The notes under the pieces were generated by a model that worked only from the letters and a program-made list of their open reading frames with translations, was not told the origin of the DNA and made no database searches. From Eretmocerus hayati (lineage: Eukaryota > Arthropoda > Insecta > Hymenoptera > Aphelinidae): a stretch of DNA of 64,000 bases. The stretch lies in assembly GCA_029851415.1 (NCBI GenBank), contig CM056744.1, positions 9,369,268-9,433,267 on the forward strand, given 5' to 3'. Numbering within the stretch: position 1 is the first letter of the stretch; each line of letters starts with the position of its first letter. The position numbers and the translations under genes were made by a program. Positions 46,474-57,980 of the stretch are shown here, in pieces.

Positions 46474-47226
46474 ATGAAGAGATTGAGAGAGAAGAAACAA
46501 CTGAAATTGTGTTTTTTGGATGATATTAATATCATGGGATTGAAAATAATGTACAACAATGTGAGATCATTGAATAAAAACTTCAACGATCTTATGAAAG
46601 ACAGATGGTTTTTGCAATTTGATTTGCTGATATTCACAGAAACATTCACTACAAAGAGAGATGTGTTCGAAATCCAAGGGTACATATTAATCAACAGATC
46701 TGATATAAATTTGGAAAAGAGATCAAATAAAGTTATGATATATTTCTTGAGGAAGGGATTGAATTATGAAGTGATAAATAATTTATGGCTGAATGAGGAG
46801 GAGTGTGGATCACATATGGATATGGTACATTTGAATGTAAGTGATGTAAATATTTATACTGATTACAGGTCACCGAAAACAAAGGCAACATTTTTCATAA
46901 AATATTTAGAAGAATTATTGAGTATAAAAAGAAGAAATGAGAAAAAAAATATTGATGTGCTCATAGGTGATTTCAATCATGATACATATGAAAGTGGTAG
47001 TCGTTTTGAAGTTTATTTGAAAAAGTATGATATGAAGAGATGTTTAGGAGAAAAAATATCCACGACAAATTATAATACATAAATAGATACGATATTCATA
47101 TCGAAGGATTTCTTTAAAATAGTAGCAGGTACTCATGAATCGTATTTATCTGATCATAAACCAATATACGGTTGTTTAGGGAATGGCTTTAACATGAAAG
47201 TTGATGAAATGAACTGTGAGTATTAG
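46474..47226 (+). pseudogene. EEP/AP-type endonuclease domain of the Helitron-like element, broken
   Basis: The order of motifs is that of an exonuclease-endonuclease-phosphatase fold: IMYNNVRSLNKN near 46550, LLIFTETF near 46625, DVLIGDFNHD near 46955, IDTIFIS near 47083 and LSDHKPIY near 47145. The catalytic Asn, Glu, GDFN and SDH residues are present. One in-frame TAA at 47080-47082 separates the last two motifs from the rest. AP-like endonucleases occur in Helentrons as well as in LINEs. The neighbouring helicase and peptidase, and the absence of RT on this strand at this spot, favour the Helitron-like origin. The frame ends at the (AG)n array where other elements have inserted. Confidence 0.7.
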
Positions 47227-47310
47227 AGAGAGAGAGAGAGAGAGAGAGAGAGAGAGAGAGAGAGAGAGAGAGAGAGAGAGAGAGAGAGAGAGAGAGAGAG
47301 AGAGAGAGAG
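47225..47310. repeat. (AG)n microsatellite
   Basis: About 43 uninterrupted AG units, the first of five AG/GA arrays between here and 57980. Confidence 0.95.
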
Positions 47311-47424
47311 AAACATATTTATTACATGATAGCTTATGGATAGCTTAGACATTACAAAAAAGGTACAAATGAAAAGTAATGTTCAAGCAAAGTAAAATTA
47401 TAAACAACTTCTCAGCAGTACAAC
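47311..47424 (-). mobile_element. 3'-end fragment of a retrotransposon, minus strand
   Basis: Read on the minus strand it has AATAAA (47318-47323) and then ends directly at (CT)n, as the 3' end of a GA/CT-associated retroelement would. It is 114 bp long and flanked by the 92-bp duplication. Confidence 0.45.
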
Positions 47425-47540
47425 ATCGTATTTATCTGATCATAAACCAATATACGGTTGTTTAGGGAATGGCTTTAACATGAAAGTTGATGAAATGAAC
47501 TGTGAGTATTAGAGAGAGAGAGAGAGAGAGAGAGAGAGAG

Positions 47541-57400: not shown

Positions 57401-57476
57401 CATCAAGCTGGTGATGACCCGTAAGGAGGAGAAAGAGAGGGAAGTGAGGCGCCTCGAAGCAGGCGAATCACAGTGA
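54444..57476 (+). CDS. ORF2, endonuclease-reverse transcriptase, copy B, 1010 aa
   Basis: Same length and motifs as copy A, offset by exactly 4189 bp with no indel. The only amino-acid differences I can find are near the end (Gly/Val in VT(G/V)YIKL and Asp/Glu in EEK(D/E)REV). All endonuclease and RT signature residues are kept. Without its 5' end it probably lacks its own promoter. Confidence 0.9.
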   Translation: MANFIQANLRKSGDANDLLRAVAKEEGIDVLIISEPPRKREFSRSTFDHWGTAVIQIMNPAIRETGPAVSGRGFARKTIEGTAVYSCYYSPSLKTHEFEDELHDLEEDVRQWGGPVIIAGDFNSKEPTWSGGPRDRRGVILADTMEALGLVLANETGVITYYRHDTRSREGGSSSVLDLTFMSPSLMGRMTSWEVLDTETLSDHRHIRFRLRTDRQRQTTRRPRPTGWQVRKLEEGKFRESIETAGDLPMNSTADEAVDMVTTTITRACDASMPRKTTPCFWRKPEYWITDEIKALRRTSNKKRRTAWRSRKLQRPSLADDDRAYKEAKKALVLAIRRSKEKCWAELCDLVNGDPWGTPYRVVMSKVRTRKGNPAPTDAATLRSIVEDLFPAGEPRVTFPPESEDPIPLFTMQELLIAAKRLPNGKAPGLDGIPNEALKLVFKYKPDLLLDLFNICLSAGIFPDKWKRQKLVLIPKGQGGQRPLSMLDNIGKMYERMVLNRVEKAYEESGGLSPMQFGFRKGRSTVHAIEAVQERVQASVGRPYQGRGGFCAIIALDIKNAFNRASWERVYASQAGKVPPYLLAVTSDYLRNRTLVYDTDEGQEVRELSAGIGQGSVSGPFNWNTQYDSLLSIELPEGVIIVAFADDAGLIVWADNEELLGRRANEALARVYEWMISRLLELAVPKCEAIVVTRRRKFDLPHFYINGQEIPRKTELKYLGVWLDDKWSFRKHIQEAAQKASRVGAALQRLMPNIGGPKEKRRALLNTVTTSIMLYGAPVWGKRVEKSIIEKRMGPVHRRAALRSIRAYRTVSGDAAYVLASTPPIHLLVAERVRIWDRQKVIGAERVLTPTMKEIIRDNEKETTLEQWQTEWDSPFANGRWTHRLIRDVAKWTERTHGEIDYWTTQALSDHGCFGAYLTRFKKRTSPACQSCGDNWDDAEHALFTCNDTQSERAELDGWLGAQLTPENLVPYLLRNQETWDRVTVYIKLVMTRKEEKEREVRRLEAGESQ

Positions 57477-57957
57477 GTCTGCCGACTCAAACAGAAGAGG
57501 TCCAAATTATTCCAGGAGGAATCTGATGCACTGAAGAGGGAAGAAAGAAGAAAGAAGAGAGAAGAAAGAAGAAAGAGAGGGAACAATGAAGAATGAAGAC
57601 AGAAGATGCCGACAAGTGGCCGAAGAGAGAAGATGGAGAAGAGGAACGCTCGCAATCGAGCGCGAGACATGCCACTCATCCTGAAGTAATGCTCACGCGG
57701 TTCCGGGATGAGATGGTAGATGCAGGTGGATCTCCTTCTTGATTGCCCGATGCCCTAGGTATCGGACATCGAGGGGAGAGGGATATTACACGGCCGGGCC
57801 CACCTCTCGGTGGGCCCCACCCAAACCCGTGTCCCGCCTGGTATGGCCTGCGTGGGCTATGCGTAGTCCGCGTAAGCTGAACCAGTCCGGTGTCTGGGGA
57901 CGGATCCGAGGGATCCTGAGGCAGATTTCGCCCTCTAACCACCTTAAAAAAAAAAAA

Positions 57958-57980
57958 GAGAGAGAGAGAGAGAGAGAGAA
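57958..57980. repeat. (GA)n microsatellite at the 3' edge of copy B
   Basis: About 11 GA units, after which the Helitron-like reading frame resumes. Confidence 0.95.

Follow-up and report, generated by a model that had tools for sequence, protein, structure and literature searches.

The window, i.e. the entire 64-kb stretch of the Eretmocerus hayati genome analysed here (C4:9369268-9433267; whole assembly 692,130,109 bases), carries three copies of an R1-clade retrotransposon that are arranged head to tail between 47.5 and 58.0 kb (Table 1). Each of them starts immediately 3′ of a GA tract and ends in poly(A)-(GA)n. The original prediction of three insertions at one GA microsatellite is thus borne out, with all three present and bounded by GA. 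This includes its 3′ fragment and its 5′-truncated copy; the middle copy, described as near-complete, is in fact full-length, as it begins with ACCCGTAGGGGGC like other genomic copies and has both ORFs open. Aligned over its whole length, copy 2 is 99.7-99.9% identical to ten copies that share its type of 3′UTR (type A). The 3′UTRs of copies 1 and 3 (type B) differ from each other at 4 positions in 457 bp, and the 3′UTR of copy 2 matches type B at 77% over ~240 bp and is poorly alignable beyond that. Upstream of the 3′UTR, the alignment of copies 2 and 3 over ~3,660 bp lists only 8 differences, including one end gap.

Table 1 Features of the array and its flanks (positions within the window).
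Feature	Position	Strand	Basis or remark
Direct duplication of 119 bp, first copy	47139-47257	+	identical to 47425-47543; 86 bp of interrupted host element plus AG
(AG)43 tract, upstream of array	47225-47311	n/a	
(AG)16 tract, 5′ flank of copy 1	47511-47543	n/a	
Copy 1, 3′ fragment, 3′UTR type B	47544-48000 + A26 (to 48026)	+	99.1% vs copy 3 3′UTR
(GA)44 tract, copy 1/copy 2 spacer	48026-48114	n/a	
Copy 2, full-length, 3′UTR type A	48115-53738 + A33	+	5′ start common to other genomic copies
ORF1, gag-like with zinc knuckle	48448-50262	+	first ATG assumed; Pfam zf-CCHC E 1.4e-5
ORF2, 1010 aa, endonuclease plus reverse transcriptase	50255-53287	+	open; overlaps ORF1
APE-type endonuclease domain	50255-50893	+	Pfam Exo_endo_phos_2; AlphaFold pLDDT 91.3
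Extended endonuclease loop, 7 residues longer than relatives	50732-50782	+	26-row alignment
Reverse transcriptase domain	51674-52420	+	Pfam RVT_1 E 2.3e-21
Poly(A) of copy 2	53739-53771	+	
(GA)30 tract, copy 2/copy 3 spacer	53771-53831	n/a	
Copy 3, 5′-truncated inside ORF1, 3′UTR type B	53832-57945 + A12	+	alignment to copies 1 and 2
ORF2 of copy 3, open	54444-57476	+	99.9% to copy 2 ORF2; one terminal stop
Poly(A) of copy 3	57946-57957	+	
(GA)11 tract, 3′ flank of copy 3	57958-57979	n/a	

Five GA tracts of at least six units occur in the window. Four adjoin the copies and the fifth, (AG)43, lies inside the 119-bp duplicated block just upstream. Outside positions 47000-58000, none of 52,960 positions is GA/TC-like at a match of at least 17/20, and 22 are so at 14/20 or better. 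Between the two perfect 119-bp duplicates (host sequence plus AG) lies a 113-bp stretch (47312-47424), the minus-strand reading of which ends in AATAAATATGTTT(CT)n. This stretch might represent either an independent insertion that generated a long duplication or a patch left by repair. The array looks as if it disrupts a larger mobile element, apparent at 42549-47082 and 57920-58584. Pfam identifies a PIF1-like helicase there, another ORF without a Pfam match is endonuclease-like and has a GDFN motif, and by eye there is a possible piece of a C48-type peptidase.

Elsewhere in the window, two related blocks (29498-33993 and 61255-64000) lie ~30 kb apart and are 80-99% identical in most pieces, and long inverted repeats (16049-17279 and 18873-20081) are 89-94% complementary and ~1.6 kb apart at their centre. 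A 722-aa ORF without Pfam match (10626-12794) belongs to a multi-copy family in E. hayati and has a relative in Trichogramma kaykai. Finally, positions 60637-60694 match the Rfam insect-specific flavivirus 3′UTR repeat Ra at 41.6 bits against a cut-off of 41, which may reflect chance or an unrelated repeat.

The coding region places the element in the R1 clade. ORF2 has the N-terminal APE-type endonuclease followed by a reverse transcriptase that is typical of this clade, and ORF1 contains one stretch with zf-CCHC above the cut-off and three knuckle-like motifs by eye. The best fold matches of the endonuclease model in the PDB are the endonucleases of TRAS1 and of R1Bm (2ei9), and homologues of the element include rows named R1 (Eumeta) and waldo-3. 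In a quick tree of 37 rows with few named references, the deep fork between the 10-row group of the query and the 15-row waldo-3 group was not resolved. A search for relatives in viral contigs found none, and a viral source of the window, considered at first because of a paper on endogenous nimaviruses, was rejected, 'R1 clade' having been found in that paper once, within the title of a reference. Taken together, the endonuclease fold, the relationship to named R1-clade members and a 14-bp duplication of the ancestral R1 type (see below) agree with the predicted assignment and support an R1-clade non-LTR retrotransposon.

GA flanks and target-site duplications across the genome

We tabulated the flanks of the 40 best-scoring copies, copy 2 of the window included; a first look gave 998 candidates, and all copy counts are lower bounds. 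Twenty of these loci were read at length, and both end regions were read for the other 19. The sample represents the youngest copies, because it was chosen by score. Full-length 5′ ends with flank were available for 32 copies, the remaining 8 being 5′-truncated, at a gap or without a 5′ end where expected. Here, 25 adjoin GA directly (at least 17/20), 6 have GA no more than 50 nt away beyond a short duplication and 1 is non-GA. Among the truncated copies, L016 and L018 start at GA and L027 two bases after it; L012 has a non-GA 5′ flank and GA at its 3′ end. At the 36 resolved 3′ ends, the poly(A) is followed by at least 6 GA units in 27 copies, by 1-5 units in 7 and by none in 2. One copy of the sample is broken by other DNA (L010) and one by an assembly gap (L022). 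We found one clean off-target insertion, which has no GA tract (L045/L046).

A wider view came from a 45-mer diagnostic of the GA-family 3′ end, which has 50 forward and 52 reverse sites genome-wide; the 5′ end of the element occurs 106 times. Where both searches listed all sites, 29 of 38 match GA downstream by pattern. The other nine comprise one site at which the tail exceeds the length allowed by the pattern and is followed by GA6, the off-target copy, four with GA22-37 at the 5′ side and three without 3′ GA, for which the 3′ side was read. One copy with a GA-family 3′ end lies in a GATA tract (L123). The proposal that GA is a further R1-clade target is thus supported in the sampled copies, most of which are flanked by GA rather than by other DNA. 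The junctions are GA and do not correspond to the rDNA target of R1, RT, R6 and R7, and Rfam at gathering thresholds detected no rRNA in the window. Nor do they correspond to AC or ACAY repeats, the targets of Mino and Waldo, or to the TTAGG target of TRAS and SART, no TTAGG run being visible by eye and the junctions read being mostly GA.

The length of the target-site duplication was obtained from copies at tract edges and from the off-target copy, since a duplication is not measurable inside pure GA. The clearest case, L017, has (GA)12TGTGGT on its 5′ side and poly(A)-(GA)4TGTGGT on its 3′ side, giving a duplication of 14 bp, GAGAGAGATGTGGT. Duplications of 14 bp were likewise read in L025 (GATTGATTGATTGA), L053/054 (GAGAGTTCAACCAT) and the off-target copy L045/046 (GATCATACCCCATG); all four measure 15 bp if one A of the tail is counted. 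Further duplications span 12-13 bp (L026), 12-15 bp (L037/038) and 9-12 bp (L029/030), and L043/044 shows an 11-bp match followed by a one-base difference. In the seven edge cases GA lies 5′ of the inferred nick site, and the duplicated sequence can extend beyond the GA. The edge-case duplications are therefore ~14 bp long, as are those made by rDNA R1 (PMC2718515), and the geometry of insertion is that of R1. By eye, a further copy (L087) has an inverted 5′ part and a duplication of approximately TATGACTACTACTA, as in twin priming.

If the GA tract were instead part of the element, carried in its RNA as a poly(A)-(GA)n tail, the flanks would say nothing about the target. Such a tail would fit the poly(A)-(GA)n end of most copies seen, and in arrays a single GA tract serves as the 3′ flank of one copy and the 5′ flank of the next. 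Two edge insertions, however, have no GA after the poly(A), yet carry GA34 and GA53 on the 5′ side beyond the duplication (L029/030 and L037/038). In three others (L017, L043/044 and L053/054), 2-4 GA units follow the poly(A) and then give way to sequence duplicated from the 5′ side, and the off-target copy has GA on neither side. As edge insertions thus lack 3′ GA, or have only the units that fall within the ~14-bp duplication, GA does not belong to the element, and we give next to no credence to a carried tail.

GA tracts can adopt unusual structures. They might thus attract insertions as fragile or open DNA, e.g. as triplex-forming purine runs, with the element entering at breaks or accessible sites without recognizing a sequence. 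The recurrence of insertions at tract edges would agree with this, but the uniform orientation would not, as none of the rows examined has a TC run immediately after poly(A). Furthermore, the ~14-bp duplications point to a regular staggered cut, and a relative with the same 3′UTR end often lies at GATA (see below). Judging from these observations, insertion into fragile DNA is unlikely.

A third possibility is that the real target is another repeat, the microsatellite tail of which happens to be GA, GATA or GATT. Indeed, many 3′ flanks enter one 'TTTATTCGTCCGAAGACAAAA'-like repeat after the microsatellite, but L009, L017, L019 and L053/054, for example, lack it in the stretch read and GA is the common part, which makes this reading highly improbable. 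The 'TTTATTCGTCCGAAGACAAAA' repeat and its variants, with adjacent GA, GATA or GATT, adjoin L011, L013, L021, L024, L025, L028, L034, L088, L093, L097, L103, L114 and L123. This repeat may supply the microsatellites.

With GA as the target, neighbouring copies are frequent. Within the stretches read, same-strand R1 neighbours lie upstream in 7 of 39 and downstream in 13 of 36 copies, and 18 of the 39 have one on at least one side, so that the serial insertion proposed for the window is real elsewhere as well. The upstream neighbours of L018 and L025 are 82-84% identical and their 3′ ends are also at GA, so that GA targeting extends beyond the youngest copies. Insertion beside an older copy was caught directly in L094, the duplication of which (GCGAGACCCCGTA, by eye) starts in a GA tract and continues into the 5′ terminus of another copy. 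This case also bears on whether the window array could have grown by unequal exchange within GA, as a tandem duplication rather than by three insertions. Amplification of this kind does occur in the genome: L086 (C1:49590200-49593900, minus strand) consists of seven near-identical tandem 3′ fragments with poly(A) and GA between them, six sharing one 5′ end and the first lying partly outside the stretch read, and is a product of duplication rather than insertion. The window copies, in contrast, have three different 5′ starts and two 3′UTR types. Because of these differences, unequal exchange is a very unlikely origin of the array, and its three copies are best read as separate insertions.

Two 3′UTRs, two microsatellites and the endonuclease

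The ORF2 of the 20 loci read at length is 98.2-99.9% identical to that of the window (at least 99.8% in 10 of the 20; two are partial). Their 3′UTRs are of type A in 12 cases and of type B in 6, with two not resolved, and copies of both types are found at GA. In a separate sample of 19 type-B 3′ ends, 14 have at least five GA units, two have three units and three have none on the 3′ side, the side read. Twelve further type-B copies include 9 seen in full, and the 3′ GA amounts to at least 6 units in 5 of these 9, although L095 and L096, two of the five, are apparently duplicates of a single locus. The 3′ flanks of L087, L088, L093 and L094 are other DNA, GATT or short GA; L087, L093 and L094 have GA on the 5′ side.

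The end of the type-A 3′UTR is shared with a second family. Followed by A8, this end occurs at 140 forward-strand sites genome-wide, with GA downstream in 36. We rejected a reading of this crude count as evidence against GA targeting, as the GA-less ends examined mostly belong to another UTR, that of a GATA family. Of the first 20 such forward ends on C1 (out of 104 genome-wide), 18 carry the GATA-family UTR, with 90.7-94.7% identity and other diagnostic bases; the other two are a GA-family end without 3′ GA (L104) and a deletion variant (L107). After the poly(A), GATAGAT begins in 9 of the 18 GATA-family copies and TAGA follows a few bases on in L105 and L117, whereas the remaining copies run into GTA repeats or into DNA of another kind. 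Across the genome, GATAGATAGA lies within reach of 33 forward ends. In these samples, the GATA family is less strict about its target than the GA family. The first base past the poly(A) is G in 19 of the 20 type-A ends without GA (L099-L118), including ends with no repeat behind the G, which may reflect a preference for nicking at A^G in both families.

In two copies, the GATA-family UTR was read together with its ORF2, which differs from that of the window. The first (L119) lies in a GATA array, has a UTR end of 95% identity and, by eye, a 14-bp duplication, GATAGATAGTTGTT. Its ORF2 protein is 61% identical to that of the window over residues 228-1003 and 50% over residues 1-92, the residues between being missing. 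The second (L125, at C2:177.94-177.95 Mb) has an open endonuclease with 51% identity over 329 residues (1-329); the ends of this copy (L126 and L127), which were placed by spacing, have GATA on both sides. Since one ORF2 goes with two 3′UTRs at GA, and a shared UTR end goes with a divergent ORF2 at GATA, the endonuclease domain rather than the 3′UTR is the most likely determinant of target choice.

Within this domain, sequence alignment and structure models single out an extended loop as first candidate for target choice. In the loop stretch the window protein has 33 residues, whereas the other 25 rows have 26 (25 in one; the P0080 row is partial). The loop is modelled at T160-S175 between short strands, and the endonuclease model of the GATA family has a tight hairpin in its place. 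In TRAS1, mutations implicate Asp-130 and the β10-β11 hairpin in telomere recognition (PMC2868851), and the extended loop may be the counterpart of this hairpin. The PDB matches of the window endonuclease also include hairpin-exchange variants of the human LINE-1 endonuclease.

A more specific proposal, to which we give slightly less than an even chance, is that 3′UTR modules are exchanged among R1 families in one genome while the endonuclease alone fixes the microsatellite. One ORF2 with UTR A or B would thus go to GA and an ORF2 51-61% identical to it with UTR A to GATA, and the 7-residue hairpin extension before SxxD would be a main determinant of GA.

Proposed insertion mechanism and comparison with known systems

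We consider it highly probable that the element's endonuclease targets (GA)n, itself setting the target, and that serial insertion builds the arrays. The endonuclease would nick the TC strand inside a GA tract or at its 3′ edge, reading GA mainly on the top strand 5′ of the nick, with a contribution of the long loop. The TC strand would be nicked first, and its free 3′ end would serve as primer for reverse transcription, starting at the poly(A) tail. A cut in the opposite strand ~14 bp further on would follow, and second-strand synthesis would yield the ~14-bp duplication. The order of strands in nicking and priming is deduced from the junctions. GA remains on at least one side of every insertion, so that subsequent copies could land beside it and form head-to-tail arrays. 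This model is built on the GA found at one or both ends of the copies, their uniform orientation, the junctions of poly(A) with GA, the ~14-bp duplications and the arrays, together with the predicted endonuclease fold.

The R1 clade is a classic example of how target specificity evolves. In this genome, one family is found at GA and a second at GATA; their 3′UTR ends are nearly identical and their ORF2s share 51-61% identity. The two families offer a natural experiment on the choice of landing site, in which the roles of endonuclease and 3′UTR are separated without a laboratory swap and which leaves one loop to test. In addition, the arrays illustrate how a GA tract can become a landing strip that each further insertion enlarges, and the element is a source of a small endonuclease with a simple recognition repeat. 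The titles and beginnings of abstracts listed, from literature that includes few subscription journals, contained no GA- or GATA-specific R1 element and no such sharing of a 3′UTR. The E. hayati assembly comprises 692.1 Mb in four chromosomes (PMC10482854), and the accessible text of two E. hayati genome papers covers repeat totals and LTR bursts and does not mention a GA-targeted R1 element, a GATA relative or their common 3′UTR.

Insertion of R1-clade elements into simple repeats is known in kind, and the GA target is a variant of it. Mino and Waldo are likewise R1-clade elements in simple repeats but differ from the present element in the repeat unit. Waldo lies in ACAY repeats, both elements reportedly being those of Kojima and Fujiwara 2003; Mino inserts in AC repeats (PMC3124438). 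A dinucleotide microsatellite is also the target of Togen of fish, a (TG)n-specific non-LTR element related to NeSL (PMC4640811), which, however, belongs to a lineage with a restriction-like endonuclease and not to R1. The R1 elements of 28S rDNA (R1Bm and Drosophila R1) resemble the element in the APE-type endonuclease followed by the reverse transcriptase, the overlapping ORFs, the endonuclease fold (2ei9) and the 14-bp duplication (PMC2718515), whereas their target is 28S rDNA and not (GA)n. TRAS1 has the closest solved endonuclease by both sequence and fold; its target is TTAGG, and the GA-family loop aligned to its hairpin differs from it in length.
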